Below, one piece after another: positions 2,074 to 25,661 of a stretch of DNA of 26,614 bases. The notes under the pieces are model-generated. The model ran no database searches, was not told the DNA's origin, and saw nothing but the letters and a program-made list of their open reading frames with translations. Source of the stretch: Saccoglossus kowalevskii (lineage: Eukaryota > Hemichordata > Enteropneusta > Harrimaniidae); assembly GCF_000003605.2 (NCBI RefSeq), contig NW_003126388.1, forward strand, positions 445,117-471,730. The letters run 5' to 3'. Every line of letters begins with the position of its first letter. Within the stretch, counting starts at the first letter, position 1. The position numbers were made by a program, and so were the translations under genes.

Positions 2074-5000
2074 CTAAAACAACAAAATATTGAATTAAAA
2101 GTGGTTTAACTATTTTTCGTGTGCTACCAAAGGGTGTGAGTGTCTACAGACAGTTATATATGCGAATGTACTGACTTGGTTGTCTAGACATAATTTTATC
2201 GAAATATATGTTATCCATGACGCGTAAGTTGCTTTCACTGCCATATATCATTCAGTTTAGCAAGTACATACATTTCGGTTTTTAGGATTGACATATTATC
2301 CCATAATCGCAGACGTCATCATCAATGATGATTCGTGATTCTATATATGGACTATCTCAGGTCTAGTATCAGATCTGGGAGTATTTACCTCCTCCGCTGT
2401 TGCTGCGCCAACAACCAAAGGTGAGAGCGATCCAGCAATACTACCAGCTGTGTTCGTAATGCCGAATAAAATACCACCAAATTTGGGTGCAATCTCAACG
2501 TGGTTAACTTTAAAACCAGGTGTGCCACATCCACTGAAAGCAGAAGATATTGTGATGAACAAAACTGCCAGCCCACGATTACAGCCGATCTGTCCACCCA
2601 TCATCAAGAAAACAGCCGGTAAGAACATACCTGAAAATACACGTTAAGTTTGTATCATAACTTATTCATTATAATAAAAAAAACATAATCCTCCACAAGA
2701 TCGTTTACCATTTGTTGATATCCAAAGCTTAGATTTAGACATTTCGTAATATTACTGCTGAATGCTATAGCGTGGCGTGTATAGGCCGTGCACTGTAAAA
2801 CTCGTATGTTTGCATTTCTGCTATGACAACGTTGTTCTATTAATAGGGGCACATACATGTATATTTAATAACAGCAGCAAACAACAATTGTATCGCTATT
2901 TTATCTTCTGATGCGATCGTGCGCAAAGCGTAAACAAATACAACGGCGTATAATTCCTCAATGCAATTAATATTGTGAGGTTATTACGAGGATACCGAAA
3001 AGTATGCACGAAGACAGCTGAGGTCTATGCAACCGTGTACTGTCTGAGTGCATACTTTGCGGCATCCTCGTAATCACCTTATCATTATACATTTTTTCCT
3101 CCAAAGGATACATCGTGGGGATGCCGAAATCAAAAAAGTTTATAACAGATTGAGCAAACTTCTTTCTATAGGGTCAAACTCGGGGGGGCTGCCATGTTTG
3201 TTTTTATTTTAAGAGGACGCGCGTAATCGTTCCATAAGTGGATACGCATATAGCAGTCATTACCCAATGACGTCAGTACTCTTCTCACTTGGATTGTTGA
3301 CATAATGTATCTCTGTCTGGTATAGTCCGCTAACCAACCGTAAAATATTGTAAACGTCCAAAGACCAAGTGATGATAAAGAAGACATGAAACCGTTCTAT
3401 ATGTGAAAGAAAATACATGTTTTTAATTACACTGGTTGTCGTAATGTTATTGAACTGGGTACGCCAAGTGTGACAAGAACGCATACACCAGAACCCAAAC
3501 TTACCGCTCCCAGGTTGAAGCCAAGTATTTGATCCATGTATTGCGGAAGACTTGTCAGTAGAGTATAGCTACCCCAGTTGCTGCAAAAGTGACCAATTGT
3601 GAGGCCCCACACCTGTGGTGATTTGAATATGGAGAGCCAAGGAACTCGCCAACCCTGAAAAAAGACAAAGAATTTAATTCTATGAGATATATTTTACATT
3701 GAAAACTCTTGGCAGCGCTTCGCTAAAGAACGTTATACCTTCACAGAAGAACTATATAAGTATAAATTTACTCACGGAGTTCACACAATGATAATGGCAG
3801 AAGATTATTATATTTCTGAACAGTACCAATGGAATGGAGTAGTATGGAGTGAAGTGGTAAATGGAAAGTGTACAACCACCAACATGGCGCCCACCAGTGC
3901 TAGATAAACATGTATTCATTGACAGTTGCTAGAGAAAGTCTCTTTGTCTAAACTGGTTTTGGCATTCAATAATGACAGCAAAAATGTTAATATTCAGCGT
4001 GTCTGAACATTCCTTGATTCAAAAGATTTGTCACTGATGTGAAGAGAGCGATTCGCTCACATCTTTAAGTGATTTGCATCAAGGCTTTAATTGTTGCTGC
4101 ATTGAATGCATGCGATACTAGTAAAAGCCTAAGCAAAGCATGTGAAGAACCTTAAGATTAGATGTGGTGGCAATGCTGATATATGTTTAAATCATTAACG
4201 ACCATTAATTTAATAAATCACAATAATTTTTTGTTATTTACCGATTTCTTCACGTTGGTAGTAATGGAGTTTACAATATAACTTCTTTCTTCTTCAGAGA
4301 TCCTAGGATGAGAATCTGGAATATCCCATATTAGGAGAAACCAAAAAACACACCAGCATAGCGATATTATGCCTAAACAGAAAAAAAGACACACTCGCGT
4401 AATTTTTCTTATACACGTGTTTGAAAAAATTGATAAAGAATCAATAATAGCTGGAAATGTGTTCTACATGTGTTCAAAAATACCGTGTAAGTTTAAATCT
4501 CTGATGATACGTATGAATGATAATGATAAATCGTCTAAATGTCGCATATTTGAGAAAATTCTTTGCGATATTGCCAATGAATGCTCTTTGGCGATTACAT
4601 ACACTGAGGTGGATATATTTTTTCCGAAAATCGGAAAGTATGTAATGTAATAATCACACACCGACTCATGCAACCAGTCAATATTTTTTTTAATATTTAA
4701 CACAACATTGATGAACTTACCAAATACGTAAAAACAAGATTCCCAACCTAGTGTGACAGACAGCACACCTGACAATGACATAGCAGCGATGCTTCCCCAG
4801 TTTGCACCTATAATACAGAATAGTATGAATGCAATAGAATGATATTTTGAATATCGAGTACGGAATGCATTAAGATGGTGAACCTATCAGATGCTATGTT
4901 GGGGTAATTGATGATCAAACTGCAATCCATCTTGCACATACGAACAGAGACTATTTTTTATGTGTAAGTTATGGCCGTTCATTGGCGAGATTTGGACAAG

Positions 5001-8000
5001 ATACTAATGCAGCGTTTTGTTTTCACTTCTATTATCTTTTGATTTTTCTTATTTTGAAATAAAAAATGATGTTCTCGATGACTGGTACACATTTTTGTGA
5101 CCCCTTTTCGGGGACTGATACAAACACTCGTGTCTGATGACGTCAATCTAAAAGAAAATTATATAATATATAGGTATAAACCTATGATTATGTTTTATGT
5201 TTTGTCAGGTTGATCTGATCAGGGTTGTGAACAATTGGAACACATAGGAACATGTTTAGTGGTTGGTTTAAGGGGTCATATGATGGAATCCGGGGAACTG
5301 GGAACTGGGAACACTTTATTGTTGTCCATTCTCCTTATTAAATTAACACTATTTTATTTTACAGTTTTTTTGGCGTCCAAGTGAGTCAGGTTTAATTGTG
5401 TCCATCGGATGAACTATTGGTGCATTTACTTCGATCGAGAAGCTCGAGACTGTTATTGGGTGCATATTATGGGTTGATATGTAGGGACTGGAATTATGTA
5501 ATAATAATTTCTGTACAAGGCTTCTAGCATGCTTTAACCCTCGCAATTTCATTATAAAAGTATAATTTGTTGATAATAAAAAATATATTAAGAAAGGAAA
5601 TATCTAACAAAACCATTTCTTGTTTGAATTGTTCTTTGTCTCGATACGTTTGTGTATGGTATTCGTTTCTATTGTACCGTAATACAAATCTTTTCTATAT
5701 CTCGAGACCTATTGACCTTGTTGACATTTTTTATTCATCTTATGTAACAAGCACATTTTTACTAATTCGATGAAGTTGATCTATATGTATGTGAGAATCA
5801 TTCAAGCAATTGTAGATATCAACATAACACCTGGATGCAACTGTTTATTACTTGTAATTATTACCTTCGTGTTTTTGCTTGTGGGCGCCCCTTTGTAAAG
5901 TTCTTCGTGACATTATATCGAATCATTTAGGCATTTAGAAACTCGTGTTTAATCCTTTATAATTTATCAGGAGATCATGCATAAGAATTGACTTCGAATT
6001 TTGCAATACAATTTCCCAAGATGTTAGGGAACGATGTGTGCCACAGTCATATAAAAAAAACATGTCACAGACAAACTAAAACGACATTTTAATTGTACCT
6101 TAGCGACCGGCAAGGGAGATAAGGTGTTATCGCAATATTTCCGATATTGCCACTCATTCACACGTATATATCATTAAGATCAGAGCAATTCGCATATTTG
6201 TGTATGGCATTGAAAACCTAACCTTCGCGGTTCAACGTCCACCAGGGCAAAATACATTATCCTTACAGCATGCAATCCTACTCCTACGAACCAATGACAC
6301 TGTAAATAAGCTAAAACTGGAAAACAGCAAAACAGCAAACTAACTAGTTGTCTAGGGTTTTACTCCCGTTTTTTTTATGTAGTTACTAATCTTAACCTTA
6401 AACCTGAGTGTTCAGGGTAGTTTCATCTTCAATGTGTGCACAATGAATACATACTAATAGACGAAGTAAACGAACAATGGAGGCCGTCGCGTCGCGCTCT
6501 GTTCGATATGCGCGACGACCACCACCCTTTAAGAATCACCACACAAGGAATAACAGATGTTATTTCAACCCTTTTTTTCTCTCGCACTCTGGGTGTACCA
6601 CCTACCAGAATTGCTGAAAGATATCAGTCTGCTTCTCTCTAGAGGTGGCGCCCATTTACCCCACATTCCATACGATGATGGGAAAACTGGACCCTGTAAT
6701 GACAGTACACGTTTCTGTGGTTAATTATTATGAAATATTACGATTTCAATGAAATAACAGAAAATTCGTCTGAGTATAATTCAATGAAACAGTCAACTTA
6801 TAAATCAGTTTGTTGTAAAACACGATACTCTATGTCGACTGACTTTCAAAAATATTTTAATATACACCTGGCAAAATCCTAAGAGAAACCGACAAGTGAA
6901 AATGGCTCCAAAACCAAGCCAAGCTGCAGCCGGTGTGAGCATTGTTAATATGGCACAGAATAAAATGCTGCCACCATACACACGCATTGCTCCGAATTTT
7001 CTTTCAAGCCATCCTCCCGGAATCTGTGTAATCGTGTAACCATAGTAGAAAGCTCCAAGCAGAATTCCTTCTTGGTAACTACTCCAGTTGAAATCTCCCG
7101 TCTAGTAATATATAACGTTAGTTTATAACATGTCTCAATACTTTCCAATAATATATATGCATGTATAGTCAAATCTACATGGATTGATCCGTTCATCTAA
7201 TTTACATATACAAACATATGAGCATGAAATACAAGATTTGTTATATTATACTATAGTGATAATTATGATTTACAGCAGAAACTGAAAAATATGATATTTT
7301 GTACTTCATCTTATACTGTCTTGGAATATTTCTTTTTGTTTTGATTTCTTAATACAAACAATTAAGGTAGAGATGCATGTTTGTGAGCCCTTGGGAGTGA
7401 TTTTTTTTTATTTTTTGTTTTTTATTATCTAAACAGTCTTGGCAATATACTGTTAAATTTTGGAGAATTGTGAATAGTGGAACATACTCAAAAAACGATT
7501 TTAAAATATAGATAACAGGTGCAAACATTCTCTCTTTTGAATGCTTAGCAAGATTTAGCAAGGCTGTACATAAATAATAAAAAAGAAACATGGTGAAATA
7601 AAAGAAATGACGGGATCTCCATATTATGCACTATATTTTAACAAAACGATAATACATTTAAATTTGGAACTGTTACAGCCATTTGTATTATGAGCATTAG
7701 CACACTTCTTACTGAGTGAATTGTTATGCAAATTAGCAATTATCTCAGCTTCTTTTTAGTGCACATCCCAGAACTTAAAAAAAATAGCTCCAGTTTTCAA
7801 GACGGCACTTTCTTCATAGTAAACAGATGTACCCACAAACCAAGTTTGACAGGAAACAGAAGCATGGTTTAGGAGCTATTTTTTTTAAATCACTTTTGAC
7901 CAAAAAAGCACATTTTTGTGCATATTTCAAACTACAGTGTCCATAAAAAAAATACTAAAAATTTTTAAAATTCATACAATGTGCTTTCTGAAAATATATA

Positions 8001-8544
8001 GTTTTGTGGACCAGGGAGGTCATCTTGGTTTCCTAATTAACTAATTAAAATACCTGTCAGGTAAACAGCATCTCTACCTTAAAGCGGGGGAGTCGTAACC
8101 TGCGCATGCGTCAGATGGCCATGGCGTTTCATTGTTTACAAACAAGCGTCTACCCATGAGGCTTTGCGTTTTAACGTGTGTTGTTATCGTCGCTCCCGCT
8201 TTAAACAAATGTATGATACGCGATTAACAAATAAACGACTGTTGGACAATTTGAGGTGGGTCCGTCAGTGCCTAGAAAAAACTGCTCTTGAGTTCAATAT
8301 TAAATTCCATATTCACCGTAAAATTTACGTATGACAAGCCGATGTAGGTATGTCCTTACCTCTTCCTCCTCAGTGACGGTTGCATTTATACCACATTCGT
8401 CTGCACTATCCTGTGCATCGCTGTCATGCCCAGTACTATTCACCATGGCAACGATGGCAACACTGAGATTATTTCGCATCGTGTATGCATTCAGCATTCC
8501 AAAGAAAAACCAGATTGCCAGCACGTGACGGGCTGCTATCAGGT
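1837..8544 (-). CDS. SLC17-family anion transporter (sialin/VGLUT-like), first coding exon missing
   Basis: Nine minus-strand exons join with consistent GT/AG sites and phases: 8544-8360, 7101-6868, 6693-6606, 4807-4721, 4372-4242, 3654-3505, 3396-3264, 2630-2389 and 2073-1837. They give 494 residues plus a stop, close to the full ~495-residue family length, so only a short N-terminus is absent. SLC17 hallmarks in order are MRNNLSVAIVAMV (TM1), a lumenal loop with two N-glycosylation sequons (NST, NAT), TQIPGGWLERKFG (TM2 and the 2-3 loop), WGKWAPPLERSRL (TM4-5), DSHPRISEEE (central loop), LPQYM and NGFMSSL (TM7-8), and GILFGITNTAGSIAG (TM11). The family moves organic anions (sialate, glutamate, urate) or phosphate across lysosomal, vesicle or plasma membranes. 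Here the usual TM4 glutamates and histidine are replaced (see findings), so the substrate and proton coupling cannot be inferred. The tail is hydrophilic and acidic, without a clear sorting motif. Confidence 0.93.
2389..2630 (-). CDS. SLC17-like exon H: TM9-TM11
   Basis: 242 bases, entering in phase 1 after TTTCAG and leaving in phase 0 before GTAAAT. It encodes MFLPAVFLMM, GFKVNHVEIAPKFGGILFG and ITNTAGSIAGSLSPLVVGA, the most conserved block of the family. Confidence 0.93.
3264..3396 (-). CDS. SLC17-like exon G: TM8-TM9
   Basis: 133 bases, entering in phase 0 after ATATAG and leaving in phase 1 before GTAATG. It encodes NGFMSSLSSLGLW, the second-half loop motif GWLADYTRQR and the VRRVLTSL segment. 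Confidence 0.9.
3505..3654 (-). CDS. SLC17-like exon F: TM7 region
   Basis: 150 bases, phase 0 at both ends, acceptor TTTCAG, donor GTAAGT. It encodes VPWLSIFKSPQVWGL, HFCSNWGSYTLLTSLPQYM and DQILGFNLGA, a close match to the TM7 region of the family. Confidence 0.93.
4242..4372 (-). CDS. SLC17-like exon E: TM6 and central cytoplasmic loop
   Basis: 131 bases, entering in phase 1 and leaving in phase 0 before GTAAAT. It encodes a tryptophan-rich TM6 (CWCVFWFLLIWD), then the conserved loop DSHPRISEEERSYI ending in TTNVKKS. Confidence 0.92.
4721..4807 (-). CDS. SLC17-like exon D: TM5-TM6
   Basis: 87 bases, phase 1 in and phase 1 out. Acceptor TATAG, donor GTAAGT. It encodes ANWGSIAAMSLSGVLSVTLG and the WESCFYVF segment. 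The split glycine codon at each end matches the neighbouring exons. Confidence 0.9.
4808..6605 (-). other. SLC17 intron between exons C and D
   Basis: AT-rich intron of 1798 bases. Apart from the MITE A fragment at 6481-6532 I see no coding or repeat structure. The short open frames within it carry no recognisable domain. Confidence 0.7.
6481..6532. mobile_element. MITE family A, internally deleted fragment
   Basis: About 50 bases carrying GTCGCG-rich sequence, the internal TGTTCGATATG block and the terminal GCGACGACCACCACCCTTTAA end of family A. Nearly all of the centre is missing. It lies in the SLC17 intron between exons C and D. The right TTAA is present and the left end is degraded. Confidence 0.6.
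6606..6693 (-). CDS. SLC17-like exon C: TM4-TM5 junction
   Basis: 88 bases, entering in phase 0 after ATTACAG and leaving in phase 1 before GTAGGT. It encodes GPVFPSSYGMWGKWAPPLER followed by SRLISFSNS. The WAPPLERS motif is diagnostic of SLC17. The position usually occupied by histidine before the MW pair is tyrosine. Confidence 0.9.
6868..7101 (-). CDS. SLC17-like exon B: TM2 to start of TM4
   Basis: 234 bases, phase 0 at both ends, acceptor ACTAG, donor CAG/GTGTAT. It encodes FNWSSYQEGILLGAFYYGY, the major-facilitator 2-3 loop motif GGWLERKFG, TM3 and the first part of TM4 (CRFLLGFCQ). Confidence 0.92.
7362..8082. mobile_element. MITE family E with 15-bp perfect terminal inverted repeats and TTAA ends
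   Basis: TTAAGGTAGAGATGC at 7362-7376 is matched exactly in inverse orientation by GCATCTCTACCTTAA at 8068-8082. The roughly 720-base interior is AT-rich with homopolymer runs and no coding capacity, as expected for a non-autonomous DNA transposon. TTAA at both ends suits a TTAA-duplicating superfamily (piggyBac or Kolobok type, inferred). It lies in the SLC17 intron between exons A and B, and its right TTAA is shared with the next element. Confidence 0.7.
8079..8204 (+). mobile_element. MITE family B copy 1
   Basis: 126 bases running from TTAAAGCGGGGGAGTCGT to CGTCGCTCCCGCTTTAA. The interior TTGTTTACAAACAAGCG is shared with the copies at 11944-12092, 12218-12372 and 21319-21468. It is a short inverted-repeat element without coding capacity, abutting family E through one shared TTAA. 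It lacks about 25 bases that the 12218 copy has near its right end. Confidence 0.75.
8360..8544 (-). CDS. SLC17-like exon A: TM1 and lumenal loop
   Basis: The acceptor is TTTCAG before 8544 and the donor is GTAAGG after 8360. The exon enters in phase 1 (two bases complete a split codon) and leaves in phase 0. It encodes TM1 with the conserved arginine of the R-x-N-L-S-V-A signature, then an acidic lumenal loop with two N-glycosylation sequons. Confidence 0.88.
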
Positions 8545-8858
8545 CTGAAACCTTAATTAACAAAAACAAATTATATACTAGTATATTTACGTTAATCACG
8601 CTATAACATGACAACTCGTATATTGTGCTCGTTCATGTCCTCTTACACAAGTCTGAAGCAATCTGAAATCAGACACATGAAATTTAAAACTAAACTGGCA
8701 CAAACTGTTTGATCTTTACTCTTGCGTACTTTAGGATGGCGAATGCGAACGATTGTTAATAGTACGTGACCCAAATCAATAGAATCGCGATACAAATAAG
8801 AATATAATCAAACGGCGATCTGAATTCGATCAATGAGCGACTCGAATGTGACAAGTGG
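8545..8858. other. upstream intron of the SLC17 gene; degenerate repeat at its end
   Basis: No coding exon is convincing here. From about 8745 the sequence is a degenerate repeat of roughly 22-25 bases with a core like GACCCGAATGCGATAA. It resumes at 9285 after a MITE insertion. Confidence 0.35.
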
Positions 8859-12748: not shown

Positions 12749-15698
12749 TTAGATATCATTAAGAATTACTTCCTCTAACAACGTTTCTCTATTAAGAAAA
12801 GAATAAAATAAATATTTAGCACAATTTCTAACAGTTTGTGGATTTTTGTTGGTCATTAGGTTAATGAACTGGTGTTGTAGGCGGGGCTGCTTAGTGTATA
12901 TGTTTGGAATATAGCGCTGCCTCAGCTCGTCGTAGGCGGGACAGAGAAGTAAAAAATGAAACTCATCTTCAACCCCACTACGACAAACTGGACAGATCCT
13001 GTTGGTCTCGGTATGTTTAGGCGGCGTCCCTTTTCAATCATTAAACTATGTGATGATGTTCTGAATTTTAACATAGCAAGTCGAAAAACTGTTTTCATTT
13101 CAATTATAAGATACGATTCCAGTTCCAGGTTACGTTTTTATAGTTTATATGAAGTTAATCTTTCAAATAAGTCTACAACACCACACCATTTTTGGAGATC
13201 GATGTCAAAACACCGCTGACGAAACAAGCCAAGAAACGCATTTTCATCATGTACCACAAATCTCCAAATCCGTAACTAAATAGTATTTTTCTCGCTACCC
13301 CATTGCTTTATTGAAACAATTTTTGTAACAAATATTTTAAAACACAGAGAAATAGACACTGGTCCAATTTTACATATAATAACCATTAGTGCATGGAGCG
13401 CTTTTGTTGCCTGATCTGCTAGATGTTGTTGGCATAATGACCAAGAACCACGTAGTGAGAATTTTATACCCAAATAAACGTAATACGGCACTACTTCAAT
13501 TATTTTTCCATCGTATCGCCACTGCTCGTATCTTCGTAACGGTCCTCCATTTCTAAAAACTATTACATTGGTTTTGGTTAAATTAACTCTCAAATGATAA
13601 TTATCACAATATGATTTCAACTTATTGTAATCTTTGCAATCCAATTGCATTGTAAGACATCAAAACTAAATCATCCGCAAAAAGAAGATAAAATAACTTA
13701 ATTAAACCCACAGAACAACCAGAACTATCACGTAAAAGCTTGTCTTCTACGTGGAGGTCATTTATAAAAAAAAAAAAGAATTGTAAATACATAGAGCTAA
13801 GAATGGAATACATTTTACCTCTAATACCTGCTTTACCAAGTTTGAAAAATAAAGCTACCCGATTGACTCGGTCGAATGCTTTTTCGAAGTCAATAAAAGC
13901 ACAACAGAAACGTCCCCGTTTAGTTGCAAGATGTTTTTGTACCAATGTGTGAATAATAAATACGTTGTCTATGTGCTATAGCCTGCCCTGAAACCCGCTT
14001 GTTTTTCTCTAGTAAATTCAATAATTTCATCCCATTTATGTAGCCTATTGTATAAAATTCTATTGACAATTTTACTTAATATTGGTAGTAATGTGATACC
14101 CCGATAATTACAAGCCTTATTCCTAGAATCATTTTTATGTATCGGGAATACAATACCTTCACACCATTGCTTAGGGGAAATGGTTGTATCGAAAATACTG
14201 TTGAAGATGCCATGTAATAATTGAATTAATTGAGGAGAGCAAAATTTGTAAAATTCAGGCGGTATGCCATCGCTGCCTCGTGATTTACCAAATTTCAACT
14301 GTAATTTGGTTCTCGTGTGAGTAGTTAAAATTACCATCCTGGACAGCAGATTCAATACTGCTCCACAAATTGTCGTGCTCAGTGTTTTTTCCACATTAAT
14401 AACTGGATTAAATAAAGAATTGAAATAATTAAACCATTCAGTTGGCCTAATTGAGGGTGGTGTGGGCTCGTCTGCATTTCGGAAGAATCCCCAAAACTTT
14501 TTGCTATCACTGTCACGAGCGGCTTTTTCTAACTCGGGTATTTGATTATTTTGATAGACCTTTTTCTTTTTTATAAGCATATCGCTGTATTCTTTTTTGC
14601 TAGTACGAAATTGTCGTAGTTTTCTTTGTAAATCTAACTTAGCGTTATTGCATTCAGTATCAAACCACCTAGCACAGTGAATGCTTACACTCTTGTTATT
14701 CTGGCGCCTGCGTGGTCGAGTATTCATGAATAAATCTGATAGTTTAGAGAGCCCCATTTATATCACCAATATCAGTGTCCAACTGAATGGTTTGGATCAC
14801 ATGATCAAAGTCACCTTCTATCCATTTTGCTTGGAATATTTTACATGATTCCCGATTCACATAATATCTCCTAAATTGTGGCATGCTTTTATTATTAACA
14901 GCTACAGTTTGACGATTACCAATAAAATACCCATCTATGGTGCATTCAAATGGCATGTGGTCCGATTCAGTTCTACATCCAACATGCAAATCAGATATAG
15001 TGCTAAAAATAGTTTGTGATCATACTAGCCCCATTGTAAGTTATGCATGTAAAGTGCCCTATGGTGTCAGAGGGTCCACGTCCATTTATGTTCCTAAGAT
15101 CGGTCGGTGGTTTTGCATACACTCAATAACTTATCTCCATAATTATTGTTTTCTACATCACAGTTACTACGCACGCCAATATCAATATTAGCAATGTGTG
15201 TGTCACCAATAGGCATATGAGTAGAATTTTCATCTTCGATAAAGTCATTTAGTACCCCTGTCCGTGCATTAAAGTCTCATATTAATAACACATTTGCGCC
15301 ATAATAACGTCTGAATAGATTTACTATATCAGATTCAATTTCTGCAAAAATAGTGTCGTTAGCATAGTGAGACCCAACAGGTCGTATGTACACAGCACCA
15401 AGGAGGAGTACGTTTTTATTTGGCACTTCTAACTTTAGCCAAGAATAGAATTTTTTGAGCATCGCATTTTCTCAACAAATTGCGAGAAGATGGTAAAAAT
15501 ACCACCCGAGTGTCTCCCCTTATTACCGGATCGCTGTGCGTCAACATAATAAGTACAATAATTTTCTAAATTAAAGGTGCATGAATCTACAAAGGTTTCA
15601 GTTAGAGCAATAATATCAAATTGTTTTAAATATGCAATAAATTCTGTATCGTCCCATTTACCTTTCAAACCTCTAACGTTCCAAAAAAGTAATTTCAC
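12749..15698 (-). pseudogene. LINE ORF2: endonuclease-reverse transcriptase, multiply broken
   Basis: Starts MKLLFWNVRGLKGKWDD (endonuclease N-terminus), then LTETFVD, the AVYIRPVGS block and SDHMPFE (endonuclease histidine motif). The reverse transcriptase begins near SRGSDGIPPEFYKF and includes NYRGITLLPILSKI, QAGFRAGYST, FIDFEKAFDRV and FADDLVL (the catalytic aspartate pair). The C-terminus has FRTSSHSLMIEKGRRLNIPR and, in another frame, CPAYDELRQRYIPN, before a stop at 12749. The coding sequence is spread over at least seven frame segments. About 25 residues that normally lie between FDRV and FADD are missing at a 12-base A run (13766-13777, plus strand). Confidence 0.88.
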
Positions 15699-15954
15699 TG
15701 TAATGTTGTCAATTTCATGAGGGCGTTGACCAGACTGCTACTTTGGTTGGAATATGATCACTTTATGTTGAGCGTCGTCGTATTCGTACAGTGTTCGTTT
15801 TCCACTCTGTTTCTTCACGGGCAGTTTGTCGTAATTCACGTATGTTAAGCTCATCATTCTTCAACGCTTTTCTGAACTCGAACAATTTTTTCCTTTTAAA
15901 TCTGATGTCTTTTGAATAGTCCTCATCAATATACATATTTGATCCTTGTAGCCG

Positions 15955-16386
15955 CTACGCGTTTTTTACGATAATTTCTTTGTCCTTGTAGTTAGTACAC
16001 ATGGCGACGATAAGTTTTCCGCCATTGAAAAACGGGCCGTTGACAACACGATGCACTCTTTGAAATTCCACATTTGAAGTAATTCCTAATTTGTCGTTAA
16101 TTATGCTTTTTACGATGATTTCAGACTCTTCCCACGATTCCGAACTTTTCTCCTGGTGGACCCCTTTAAATACTAGGTTATTTCGGCGAGATCTGTTACT
16201 CATGTCGTCATATTTACTATGTAGTTCTTTTAACTCTGATTTTAGTTCACGAATCCCGTTCAATACATCTGAACTGTATGAAAAGGAATGGCCCTCTAAA
16301 TTGGTAGGATTTGATTTGCGTATTTCACTTTTGAAATCATTGATTTCTGTACGCATCTCGGCAACGTCATCTTCTAGATTATTCAT
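15955..16386 (-). CDS. LINE ORF1 second part: coiled coil and RNA-binding-like domain
   Basis: 143 codons. Residues 1-26 and about 40-66 are heptad-rich and acidic/basic (LKSELKELHSKYDDM). RSRRNNLVFKGV follows, a block common at the coiled-coil/RNA-recognition junction of LINE ORF1 proteins. GITSNVEFQRVHRV and KEIIVKNA fit the rest of that fold. The role by family analogy is binding the element's RNA. The frame is intact here but shifted relative to the first part. Confidence 0.7.
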   Translation of the reverse strand: MNNLEDDVAEMRTEINDFKSEIRKSNPTNLEGHSFSYSSDVLNGIRELKSELKELHSKYDDMSNRSRRNNLVFKGVHQEKSSESWEESEIIVKSIINDKLGITSNVEFQRVHRVVNGPFFNGGKLIVAMCTNYKDKEIIVKNA

Positions 16387-16732
16387 GCGTTGCCTGTGAT
16401 TCTGTCAGAATCGCTGCTAGTTGTCGAGACAAAGAATTATTCATCTCAGAGATGTCATTTTTTGTAGCATACGTATGTGTTATTTGATCTGCTGAACACT
16501 CTGTATCCACCCCATTACCTTTCTGGCCTGTATGAGGTCCTGGATTACGTTCAACGTTACCGATAATTAACTGCTTGAATAGACATATTTGTACAGCAAG
16601 TGTCACTTGTCCTGTTAAATATGCAAATGAGGTCGCTAAACATGCACATGTCCACTCATCTTCGTCACCCTGGCGATTTCGACAAGAAAAACTCCCGATT
16701 CTGGCTCTATAAACTTCTAAAGATACTCCCAT
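16379..16732 (-). CDS. LINE ORF1 first part, with 2A-like motif
   Basis: 117 codons from ATG at 16732. Residues 59-66 read NVERNPGP, matching the core of 2A ribosome-skipping peptides except that the leading aspartate is asparagine. A hydrophobic stretch (about residues 42-58, AVQICLFKQLIIG) precedes it, as in known 2A contexts. The C-terminal half begins a heptad-like region (NDISEMNNSLSRQLAAILTE) that continues in the next frame. The stop overlaps the next ATG in ATGAATAA, which probably reflects a frameshift in one ancestral ORF1. Confidence 0.72.
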   Translation of the reverse strand: MGVSLEVYRARIGSFSCRNRQGDEDEWTCACLATSFAYLTGQVTLAVQICLFKQLIIGNVERNPGPHTGQKGNGVDTECSADQITHTYATKNDISEMNNSLSRQLAAILTESQATHE

Positions 16733-16856
16733 TATTACTGAGATAGTGAGAAGTACAAACCTCGTTGGATAATTGCTATGGAAACTACTGTTGAGTGATA
16801 TACCGCTGAAAATACTTGTAATTCTCGGAGAGCGACTTCAGCAGGCTCCACTCTGT

Positions 16857-21771: not shown

Positions 21772-22728
21772 ATGGGTTGTGGAGCAAGCGCCACCGGCAA
21801 CGTGGACGTCTCAGGGACACCAACTAAATTGGAATCAACACGTAAAAATACATACCGTAATGCCCTAATGTTTTCGCAGCTAGAAGATGAAGAGGATCTC
21901 ATGGAAGACACTCCAGAAATAATAGAGGGGAAAGAAAAACTGCGTGCCTTGGTCGAGTATCTCGATAAAGCCGACGTTGAGTCTATTAGCACCCAAGCTG
22001 GTTTGGACACTCTACTAAGCGTGGACAGCGTGCTTGGTGACTTCTCTTCTTATGACAACATGCCGAAAATGAAGAAATACGGAATTTTTTTGGCTGATAT
22101 CAACTTTCCCAGAGTATTTGCAAATCTGTGGGATAAAATACGAAATCCGATAGACGAAGGATTGGATAGTAAAGAACAAAGTGTGATATATGCGTTTGCT
22201 CTTTTTGAAGGGTGTAAAACCATGATAGGCGGATTATGTGACAGCTCTGTTAGGTTCTCGTGTAAAATTGGTCAGGAAGGCGTCATTGGGCGCTTAGTTA
22301 CGGATTTGGAGAATCCCAGATTACAGCCCAGTGAGATATCGGAAGAAAGCAGCGTTATGGAAGAGGACGCCATCTACGGCATGCTCAGGAGTACTATCAT
22401 GTGCATGCACAACTCTATCAAAAACTGGTCCGATAACAAACCCTATTTCCGCGAAGCCAATGCAGTTAAACTGCTACATAAGTACGTCGAAAACTGTAAA
22501 AACCCGAGCATCCGGGCAAATTCTCTCTTCACATTGGTGTACATCGTGAACGAAGATGAGAATCACATGATCAGCGCCGGAGAGGAGATGGATTTTTTCA
22601 TCACAACGCTGAAAAAGTCGATCGAAAACACATACAGTCATCACATGTGTGAAGTTGGTGATTATACATTTACTGCGTTAGAGATTGTCGATGGGATCAT
22701 ACACCTCGCCGCTAATGATACAAACAAG
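21772..22728 (+). CDS. ARM-TIR-SAM exon 1: lipidation signal and first helical repeats
   Basis: 957 bases encoding residues 1-319, phase 0 donor AACAAG/GTAAAC. The start is the first ATG in a fair context (GACAATGG). Residues 1-40 are polar with the MGCGAS anchor; from about 45 the chain is alpha-helical and acidic. The frame runs on past the donor to a stop at 22809. An unspliced or intron-retained transcript would give a 345-residue form lacking TIR and SAM. Confidence 0.9.
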
Positions 22729-25661
22729 GTAAACTACATGTATGTAGATTTAAATCAAAGCTACTTGAAAATGGTAATTATCCGGAAATCATCAAACTAC
22801 GCCGCGTGAATTATAAAAGCAAATATACGACAAACTATCTTGATTAATTCTTACACGAGTTAAAAGTCAGTAATGAGCAATGTTATAGTCGGTTCCGGAA
22901 CTTATGTAGTATATGGGATTTCAATGAAGTAATCTGACTACATCGTTCCTAAAAATCGCGCCCTTTAATGACGTAAAGTGACATGAAGACGCCATTGTTG
23001 ATTTAGATCTGTGGTCGTCCGACAATTTAAGAAAATACAATTGTAATGATCTACCATATTCAAAATGACGAAAAACTTTACAACCAAACAAAATTGTCTG
23101 ATTGAACGACGTTGGTTATTGCGTCACGGATTTTAATAGTCGATAGAGGGCGTACTTTGAGAAAATGTATGTTGTATGTTACTTACACTGAGTTTGCAAT
23201 GTACAAGTACAGTTTGTCTTTATTTCCAGGAAAAACTAGTGGACAAGAATGTTCTTCCGTTGTTAGTAAAATTGCTCTGTGACGACTGCACAGACAGAGA
23301 GAATGAAAAAGCAGCAGTTGCTATCTGGAATTTGGCTTTTCACGAGAATAATAAAGAAAGAATCAAAGCCGAGCCAAATTGTTTGGACGGTGAGTTGATA
23401 TTATAATCAATGTAACAGTGCATTTAATAGTGCGACTATATTCAAGTAAGAAGATGGTGAATTGTTCGAGTTACGCCAATATATTATAGACCTCCCAAAT
23501 TGTAACTCGATGTTTGATTACCAGTTAACAGAACTTCGAGTTATGGGCAATACATATTTTTGTTTTTGTTGAACGTCCACACTTCGAGTTACGGGCAAAA
23601 TAGATTTTTGTTTTTGTTGAACGTCCACACTTCGAGTTACGGGCAAAATAGATTTTTTTGTTTTGTTTAAACGTTCAAATTTAATGACTCGAACTTTGAT
23701 TAACAGTAAACTGAACTTCGAATTACGAACGTGGTTTCTGAAAAATGGGCGTGTTCATTTTTGTAACTCGGTGTTTTCGTAACTTGATGTCCGTGCCTCG
23801 AACAATTGTTAAACGTCAGTAAACGCCACAATTATCCGTGTCTAGGCAGATAGGGCGAACCAATCAAGCCCGGTTAACTTCACTTGCAAATAATACATGT
23901 ATGTGTTTGCATAGAGCTTAAACGATTGAAAGAATCCAGTAATCAAGCCATCAGCAAGGCGTGTACAGGTGCACTATGGCAACTAGGTGGCATGGAACAG
24001 CAGCTCGAACATGCCGAATTGATGGCTGAGTTAAAGTCCAACGACGAAGAGGAGTCTGGTGAAACCAATCTTGGTCACGTGATGATAAGCTACCAATGGG
24101 ATTGCCAGAAAGTTATGATAAAGGTGAAAGACCTTTTGAAAGCGGCTGGTTTTCGTGTATGGATGGATGTAGATCAGATGGGTAAGTAGCTACGCGTGAG
24201 GCAATTTGGCGGCACAATAACGGCTATACATGTCATGTCAAGTCATGTCATTTCATGTTATGTTGTTACGTTACGCCACGCCACGTTACGCTATGTTACG
24301 TTACGCTATGTTATGTTACGTCACGCCATGTTATGATATGTTATGTTATGTAATGTAATGTAATGTAATGTAATGTTATGTTATGTTATGTTATGTTATG
24401 TTATGTTTGTGTCGTGTTCGTGTCGTGTTATTTCATGGTCACGTTCTTTCCATAGCTGGATCAACGTTAGAGGCAATGGCTGAAGCTGTGGAAAAGGCAG
24501 ACGTTGTGCTCATTTGCATGTCAGAAAAGTACAAAAACAGTCCAAGTTGTCGTACAGGTATACGTCATGATATCATAACATTTCATCATTTTTCGACGCT
24601 GTTACACTTGAACGAAGTATTCAAAGCTGATGGTGTCGCTGACAAAAGAAGTATATTCTTTCACGATATAATATCGGGATATTTCATGCGTGTTTTTATG
24701 TTCTATTTTATTTATGATTGGCCCTGTATAGATCTCGATGGGCGACACGTATCGACCTTAATTAATTTCACTTTTATTCCGTCAGAGGCGGAATACACAT
24801 ATAAGCTACGAAAAGACTTCATCCCAATACAAGTACAGGCGAACTACTCTCCCGATGGCTGGCTTGGAATTCTCGTCGGAACTAAGTTGTACTTTGATGC
24901 GAGTGCCGATTCACATTTAAACGAAACAGTGTCTAAATTGATCAGAGAACTGGGGGAGCGTGGGAAAACGTCAAAGACGGGGAAAGTAAAAGCGCACGGT
25001 GAGTACTGGTTGTTGTACAGTTCGAAAGGTCACCCTAAGTGATATGTATACGTATATATGTTATGCTAAGGTCGCGAGCGGTCGCTGAGCGGCCATATAA
25101 ACATACAAAACTATGAATTAGATTAAGTTCAGTAGCATATTTAAAGAGATGGTGTGGGAAGTTTATCTGTGTTTGAAAGTGCACCTCGACAATATGGTAT
25201 GATTTATCGTTGTTTTGGAAGTGACAAAATGTTTGAATATACTAAAAATAATTAAAATTACATAACAATTACAAAGTAATTACGGTAAAATGCGGCATGT
25301 TTATGGTTTGTGTCTGTGTATGTATTGGACGAGAGCTTGCAGTTCATCTGACGTATTCACATTTATTGCAGAGAAAATGGTAGCAGCAGACGCTACCGCG
25401 ATAACCAGCGCATCGCGTGGAGACCGCCCCTCTCTCGAGAAATGGAACAATTACGATGTACTGCAGTGGTTGTCTGACACAGAGCTGGGTCACGTGAAGA
25501 AGAGATTCACCGGATACAACGGGAAATCCTTGATTGCATTGAAAAAGATGGAAATGAGGGCGCCAGAGTTTTTCTACGCCACGTTGAAGCAGGACATGGG
25601 ATTTAAAAATATGCTAGACTTGACGAAATTTTCAACGGCATTGGAAGATATCAATGAATAA
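21772..25661 (+). CDS. ARM-repeat / TIR / SAM protein, predicted lipidated NADase-like signalling protein
   Basis: Six exons join in frame: 21772-22728, 23230-23389, 23915-24181, 24456-24557, 24786-24998 and 25372-25661, giving 662 residues. Residues 1-6 are MGCGAS, a myristoylation motif with a palmitoylatable Cys3. Residues about 45-410 are helical armadillo-like repeats (VDKNVLPLLVKLL, EKAAVAIWNLAFHENNKERI, SKACTGALWQLGG). Residues 427-555 form a TIR domain: HVMISYQWDCQ, AAGFRVWMDVDQM, AMAEAVEKADVVLICMSEKY, SPSCRTEAEYTYKLRKDFIP and DGWLGILVGTKLYFD. Glu496 aligns with the catalytic glutamate of SARM1. Residues 589-658 form a SAM domain (WNNYDVLQWLSDTELGHVKK). TIR domains either scaffold immune signalling or cleave NAD+; ARM and SAM modules in SARM1 mediate autoinhibition and oligomerisation. 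The order ARM-TIR-SAM differs from SARM1 (ARM-SAM-SAM-TIR), so this is not a simple ortholog. Catalysis and membrane anchoring are inferred. Confidence 0.93.
22729..23229 (+). other. ARM-TIR-SAM intron 1
   Basis: 501-base GT/AG intron. Apart from the short read-through frame at its 5' end, it contains nothing I recognise. Confidence 0.75.
23230..23389 (+). CDS. ARM-TIR-SAM exon 2: armadillo repeat
   Basis: 160 bases, acceptor TTTCCAG, donor GTGAGT, phase 0 in and phase 1 out. It encodes residues 320-372 with a textbook armadillo pattern (VLPLLVKLLCDD, NEKAAVAIWNLAFHENNKER). Confidence 0.92.
23533..23678. repeat. 48-bp tandem repeat, three units, in intron 2
   Basis: ACTTCGAGTTAYGGGCAA starts units at 23533, 23581 and 23629. 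The first two are each 48 bases and end GTTGAACGTCCAC; the third diverges at its end. Degenerate ACTTCGARTTACG-like pieces continue on both sides (about 23460-23800), suggesting a longer, older array. Confidence 0.75.
23915..24181 (+). CDS. ARM-TIR-SAM exon 3: last armadillo helices and first half of TIR
   Basis: 267 bases, phase 1 at both ends, acceptor GCATAG, donor GTAAGT. It encodes ISKACTGALWQLGG, a short acidic linker (SNDEEESGETN), then TIR box 1 (HVMISYQW) and the WMDVDQM strand leading into the BB-loop region. Confidence 0.93.
24229..24425. repeat. pentanucleotide microsatellite (ATGTT/ACGTT/ATGTA) in intron 3
   Basis: A nearly 200-base run of 5-base units, with blocks of ACGTT/ACGCC variants on the left and uniform ATGTA then ATGTT on the right. 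It fills most of the 274-base intron between the two TIR exons. Confidence 0.85.
24456..24557 (+). CDS. ARM-TIR-SAM exon 4: TIR helix B to strand C
   Basis: 102 bases, phase 1 at both ends, acceptor TCCATAG, donor GTATAC. It encodes GSTLEAMAEAVEKADVVLIC and MSEKYKNSPSCRT. The donor falls after the first base of the putative catalytic glutamate codon. Confidence 0.9.
24786..24998 (+). CDS. ARM-TIR-SAM exon 5: TIR catalytic helix and C-terminal part
   Basis: 213 bases, phase 1 at both ends, acceptor CCGTCAG, donor GTGAGT. The split codon restores GAG (Glu496), followed by AEYTYKLRKDFIPIQVQ and WLGILVGTKLYFD. A basic linker (GERGKTSKTGKVKAH) then leads to the SAM exon. Confidence 0.92.
24999..25371 (+). 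other. ARM-TIR-SAM intron 5
   Basis: 373-base GT/AG intron, AT-rich. No coding or repeat content was seen apart from a short palindromic GCGAGCGGTCGCTGAGCGGC stretch. Confidence 0.75.
25372..25661 (+). CDS. ARM-TIR-SAM exon 6: SAM domain and stop
   Basis: 290 bases, entering in phase 1 after TATTGCAG, with stop TAA at 25659-25661. It encodes a serine/alanine linker and a SAM domain with EKWNNYDVLQWLSD, FTGYNGKSLIALKKM and LKQDMGFKNMLDLTKF. An AATAAA overlaps the stop codon; no better polyadenylation signal is obvious downstream. Confidence 0.92.

Follow-up and report, generated by a model that had tools for sequence, protein, structure and literature searches.

In this study, we analysed 26,614 nucleotides of the Saccoglossus kowalevskii genome (positions 445117-471730 of contig NW_003126388.1, here C1913; hereafter the window) and found that a gene at 21772-25661 on the plus strand is, judged by its sequence, one member of a paralogous ARM-TIR-SAM gene family. 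SARM1, an enzyme of nerve degeneration, and TIR-1 are NAD+ hydrolases of the order ARM-SAM-SAM-TIR; SARM1 forms an octamer and is controlled by NMN via its ARM region. Proteins that combine ARM with TIR, or TIR with SAM, are also known, and what appears new in this invertebrate-type TIR protein is the occurrence of the module kinds of SARM1 in another order, a predicted lipid anchor and the organisation as a small gene family. We tentatively propose that the protein is a membrane-anchored TIR effector, gated by its ARM region and clustered by its SAM domain, which belongs to a family of N-acylated paralogs.

The six exons of the gene are separated by GT-AG introns and join in a frame without inner stop to encode 662 residues. 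Just one reading frame is open in each exon, and a splice-aware alignment program written for this analysis recovered the identical six exons. The five introns measure 228 to 525 bases and have phases 0, 1, 1, 1 and 1. An initial annotation of the window had read these exons as ARM repeats followed by a TIR and one C-terminal SAM, and the rebuilt model together with three paralogs of the same order confirms this. The paralog family, the tandem copy, a doubled ARM-TIR form and the N-terminal acylation motif were all missed by that annotation.

A search of the animal's own genome (572 Mb in 4830 contigs) with the whole protein returned 37 matches, including the six exons of the gene itself. The ARM-TIR-SAM order was found in four genes, namely the window gene, a tandem copy on C1913, and one gene each on C4441 and C843. 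The tandem copy (C1913:476343-482988) lies outside the window and starts 5.6 kb downstream of the gene; its six exons are arranged as in the window gene, with exons 2 and 4 also agreeing in length, and encode 644 residues with 42% identity to the window protein. A 48-base intron which the aligner placed in exon 1 of the tandem copy was rejected as spurious, and this stretch is read as exon because the frame is open there. In the C4441 gene, exons 1 and 2 are fused. The C843 gene has the order ARM-TIR-ARM-TIR-SAM (L010 7662-2612, minus strand, with a 5' exon in L041) and stays open in a single frame between its first ARM piece and the stop; its exon that ends the first TIR (L010 7662-6917, minus) continues into the second ARM region without stop or splice. 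The first part of the joined C843 read contains stops, and the model used here begins with the first piece of ARM; the MGSKPS start comes from a 5' exon that lies outside this model. When the window gene is compared with the tandem copy, codon positions 1/2/3 differ at rates of 0.49/0.35/0.70 in the ARM region (n 340), 0.25/0.18/0.57 in the TIR (n 127) and 0.45/0.32/0.64 in the SAM (n 75), and the linkers and residues 9-48 have little or no third-position excess. The SAM comparison with C843 gave 0.64/0.41/0.64 (n 74), where position 3 has no excess over position 1.

The tandem copy shares its first eight residues, MGCGASAT, with the window protein (8/8), whereas identity falls to 25% over residues 9-48. 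Within these eight codons, 75% of the third positions differ, and none of the first and second ones. The C4441 and C843 proteins start with MGCSSSIK and MGSKPSTV, respectively. In general, Gly2 together with Ser at position 6 directs myristoylation, and Cys3 directs palmitoylation. All four N-termini fit M-G-x-x-x-S, so that Gly2 and Ser6 are kept among the paralogs, and three of them begin with M-G-C. Because of this Gly2/Ser6/Cys3 pattern, four of the four proteins are predicted to be myristoylated and three also palmitoylated.

Of the ARM region, Pfam detects a single Arm repeat at residues 316-355 (E 1.1e-4, 22.6 bits with a cut-off of 20.6), and by sequence the fold is secure only over residues about 309-398. 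The stretch before residue ~309 is probably ARM as well, judged by the paralogs and relatives: ARM-only relatives in the own genome match residues about 205-400, and ARMC9_ARM is above the Pfam cut-off in the C843 paralog. With PDB, the best match to a profile of the four paralogous ARM regions was Vac8 (E 2.7e-19), and other ARM proteins were found too. Vac8 has neither TIR nor SAM; it is also N-acylated.

The TIR is clear (Pfam TIR_2, residues 428-546, E 4.8e-21, 75.9 bits with a cut-off of 28). The other four TIRs of the family, contributed by the three paralogs, are 50-63% identical to it. In the whole window protein SAM_2 reaches E 0.02, and exon 6 alone scores 20.4 bits, just below the cut-off of 20.5; the SAM domains of the three paralogs are below the Pfam threshold as well. 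A profile of the four paralogous C-terminal domains, when compared with PDB, gave 16 matches (E up to 10). SAM or pointed-domain chains account for 14 of these, with some proteins present in more than one version; the remaining two come from a DNA polymerase and from an uncharacterised protein. The best match was liprin-beta-1 (2.2e-5), followed by SMS1 (1.4e-4), ETV6 (2.8e-4) and, weakly, the SAM of SARM1 (0.55). Many of these matches cover the first half only, and those of SMS1 and SARM1 nearly the whole domain. Exon 6 encodes 96 residues including a linker, which leaves room for one SAM, and one weak SAM stretch was found in it.

Based on this architecture, the myristate and palmitate would hold the N-terminus on the membrane, while the ARM solenoid would keep the TIR quiet and receive the signal. 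The single C-terminal SAM would then gather copies of the protein, and thereby the TIRs might pair and become active. Since the membrane-held ARM region tethers the TIR at one end and the SAM at the other, activation would consist of two-dimensional clustering at the membrane, as opposed to the opening of a soluble ring of the SARM1 type. Inhibition by ARM and oligomers via SAM have a precedent in SARM1 (PMC8635717). In immune or cell-death signalling, the assembly would most likely process NAD+ or, failing that, act as a TIR scaffold. NADase activity of the family TIR is plausible, and NAD+ processing is favoured only slightly over a scaffold function.

Several observations weigh against this proposal. 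The gating by ARM, the oligomerisation through SAM and the N-acylation are all predictions. Single-sequence AlphaFold2 gave no usable structure of the 662-residue protein (mean pLDDT 39.3). Searched whole, the three paralogs gave no Pfam SAM match with E up to 1; with their C-terminal domains alone, a weak SAM came first in two of three, and for C843 Med10 and NUFIP1 ranked ahead of SAM_PNT. Downstream of two further TIRs of the family clade, on C166 and C563, the 1.8 and 3.8 kb that were searched contained no SAM (scores 36 and 51, within or below background). The TIR profile matches SEFIR (second best), TRAF3IP2 and MyD88, and thus not enzymes alone. SARM1 has a ligand-binding Trp four residues before the catalytic Glu (W71 and E75 in PMC7075850). 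A Trp occupies this position in none of the family rows listed, seven in number, which carry S, S, M, N, N, N and N there (Ser492 in the window protein). In our TIR alignment (A2), the position of the SARM1 Trp falls within a SARM1-only insertion. According to the same paper, the Glu is kept in >70% of TIRs, including those of TLR1/2/6/10, and does not track activity (PMC7075850).

The main alternative is a membrane-anchored scaffold or adaptor without enzyme activity, similar to the adaptors of Toll-like receptors, whose SAM and TIR recruit partners. This is quite possible: the missing Trp, together with a Glu that alone is no marker of enzymes, argues for it, and the myristoylated TIR adaptor TRAM offers a precedent. 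However, Glu496 of the window protein aligns with the catalytic Glu of human SARM1 and is invariant in all six rows of the alignment, including five of five family TIRs. Furthermore, the best PDB match of the TIR profile, and hence the nearest solved chain to the family TIR, is the CRISPR-associated TIR Cat1 (E 1.4e-4), with SEFIR (9e-4), tir-1 (0.0028), RPS4 (0.0059) and SARM1 (0.0061) as the next ones; Cat1 and RPS4 are active enzymes. Among viral and prokaryotic contigs, scans with the TIR domain alone and with the TIR alignment confirmed no relative, although such scans need near-exact short peptides and distant relatives could escape. A plasmid search with the TIR gave a single weak match, in Bernardetia (30% identity over 66% of the query).

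The membrane-anchored effector could also be seen as a rearranged SARM1, in which one of the two SAM domains was lost and shuffling brought the TIR further forward, but we consider this very improbable. The two proteins have ARM, SAM and TIR in one chain and a Glu at the catalytic position in common, and SARM1 is found by both the TIR profile (E 0.006) and, among the weak matches, the SAM profile. Nevertheless, the TIR is only 25% identical to that of human SARM1, in which additional segments, absent from the family TIRs, lie next to the catalytic Glu. In a 19-row tree, the family TIRs form a clade (99/99) with those on C255, C166 and C563, apart from a SARM1 clade (97/96) of human SARM1, a piece of C. 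elegans TIR-1 and an exon on C1917 of the own genome. The rows outside the family are in part noisy spliced reads and partial exons. Given this and the long branches of which the program warns, the tree supports the separation of the family TIR from SARM1 without a deeper placement. The C1917 exon is 56% identical to human SARM1 over 45 residues, a stretch with two stop codons whose open part of 41 residues resembles an exon with intron edges; beside it, 5897 of 7001 bases are N. No SARM1 chain is among the best 60 of the 99 PDB matches of the ARM profile, where Vac8, designed repeats and beta-catenin rank above SARM1, and liprin, SMS1 and ETV6 do so in the SAM profile. Therefore, a SARM1-derived origin of the TIR is disfavoured by identity, profile matches, the tree and the separate SARM1-type exon, and independence from SARM1 is supported for this domain. 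The initial annotation had suggested that the protein arose separately from SARM1 and had asked whether all three domains might yet fall within SARM1 in a tree. Its suggestion is supported for the TIR, the domain covered by the tree, which was placed outside the SARM1 clade.

Further differences concern the domain order and the N-terminus. SARM1 has a C-terminal TIR preceded by two SAM domains in tandem, whereas the window gene and its three paralogs place the TIR (425-556) before the SAM (587-662), of which the window protein has one. The N-terminus of SARM1 is a mitochondrial signal, and that of the window protein carries the acylation motif. An artefact of the gene model, in which ARM-TIR and SAM come from neighbouring transcripts or the C-terminal domain is no SAM, is hardly credible despite the weak Pfam score of exon 6 and the stop at 25042 past exon 5, which makes a TIR-ending isoform by intron retention possible, since three other genes have the same order, the SAM profile finds SAM chains, and held-out SAM queries scored 126 (C843), 166 (C4441) and 178 (tandem copy) against 38-59 in twenty background stretches of 3.8 kb, which were longer than the tested ones. 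Because the order is repeated in other genes of the own genome, exon 6 is very probably part of the ARM-TIR-SAM gene. The initial annotation had allowed that exons 1-2 or exon 6 might belong to other transcripts; as far as this can be judged from the genome they do not, and they recur in the tandem paralog.

A more far-reaching version of our proposal, which is doubtful at present, is that these proteins follow the logic of SARM1 and were put together independently, as a second TIR effector of animals. It would be a lipid-anchored, NAD+-processing ARM-TIR-SAM protein that fires by membrane clustering, and in the ARM-TIR-ARM-TIR-SAM form two gated TIRs would share one SAM. If the three modules were indeed assembled twice, in another order and with another TIR, ARM gating and SAM clustering may recur as a means of TIR control. 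Comparison of the two would then test which features of SARM1 are needed, such as the ring, the C-terminal TIR and metabolite sensing. The N-terminal lipid signal would place such a TIR at the membrane.

The accessible portions of the literature yielded neither an ARM-TIR-SAM protein nor an acylated one; the bivalve TIR survey of Gerdol 2017 is represented there by the papers citing it. ARM-TIR proteins have been recorded in oyster (PMC4346834) and in Aplysia, where the text counts 10 and the table 11, with function not known there (PMC9334734). Like the window protein, these mollusc proteins have an ARM-type region and a TIR in one chain, and no SAM is mentioned for them in the parts available. 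The Aplysia table defines 'SARM' as TIR plus SAM and lists three such genes (PMC9334734), among which ARM-TIR-SAM genes could sit unrecognised. Pipelines that label every TIR-plus-SAM gene 'SARM' could thus mix both kinds. A clam gene of ecTIR-DC family 6 encodes ARM-like repeats, a Death domain and two TIRs (PMC6836662). It shares with the window protein an invertebrate TIR, ARM-like repeats and the lack of a transmembrane part, and differs by the Death domain, the two TIRs and, in the available text, no mention of a SAM; the plan of the window protein may be one of the ecTIR-DC families of Gerdol 2017. In amphioxus, Brafl1_131196 is a TIR-SAM protein with a reported transcript (PMC2575513); no ARM is mentioned in the portion available, and the domain order is known only from the name as written. 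Finally, the architecturally diverse TIR group 18 comprises TIRs outside the TLR and SARM1 groups from cnidarians, molluscs and others (PMC7075850), and a 2026 preprint describes uncharacterised TIR clades 10-13 in molluscs and cnidarians, apart from clade 8 of SARM1 (PMC13142454). By their descriptions, both resemble the window TIR in lying outside the TLR and SARM1 groups.

Table 1. Features of the ARM-TIR-SAM gene, in window positions
Feature	Position	Strand	Content and remarks
Exon 1	21772-22728	+	Residues 1-319, with start codon, acylation motif and the greater part of the ARM region; counterpart in tandem paralog C1913:476343-477308
Codons 1-8, MGCGASAT	21772-21795	+	Predicted N-myristoylation (Gly2, Ser6) and palmitoylation (Cys3)
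Exon 2	23230-23389	+	ARM repeats (residues 320-373); length 160, as in tandem paralog
Exon 3	23915-24181	+	Final ARM helices, linker, TIR start (residues 373-462)
TIR domain, residues 425-556	24070-24967	+	Introns 3 and 4 inside; Pfam TIR_2
Exon 4	24456-24557	+	TIR middle (residues 462-496); length 102, as in tandem paralog and C4441
Glu496 codon	24557-24787	+	Interrupted by intron 4; aligns with the human SARM1 catalytic Glu
Exon 5	24786-24998	+	TIR remainder and linker (residues 496-567)
Exon 6	25372-25661	+	Linker, C-terminal SAM, stop codon; paralogous exons in C1913 tandem copy, C4441 and C843
SAM domain, residues 587-662	25431-25658	+	Four-paralog profile

Retention of intron 5 would lead to the stop at 25042 (24999-25042) and to a protein that ends soon after the TIR, a possible SAM-less isoform. 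Intron 2 contains a 48-base tandem repeat of 2.8 copies (23533-23667), and intron 3 a short repeat of the TATGT type (24265-24407). In the own genome, TIR_2 has 43 matches at E up to 1e-3, several of which are clustered (C999, C4557 and C1466) and some of which adjoin LRR or Toll-like reads. Another TIR, on C4186, has no SAM within 1.8 kb (score 36, within or below background). Assembly gaps affect the C255 locus, where 3504 of 9901 bases are N and hide its C-terminus, and loci L012 and L017 (929 and 808 N). An open frame of 9244 residues on C4202 was rejected, since N accounts for at least part of it (1356 of the 3345 bases examined).

Apart from the ARM-TIR-SAM gene, the window holds exons of a major facilitator transporter on the minus strand (6805-7101 and other open frames within 2341-8632), for which one of the two exons tested matched MFS_1 (E 7.2e-10) and which appears SLC17-like by eye. 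Likewise by eye, remains of a LINE-type retrotransposon lie at 12749-16837 on the minus strand, where one of the two pieces tested matched RVT_1 below the cut-off (E 0.008).

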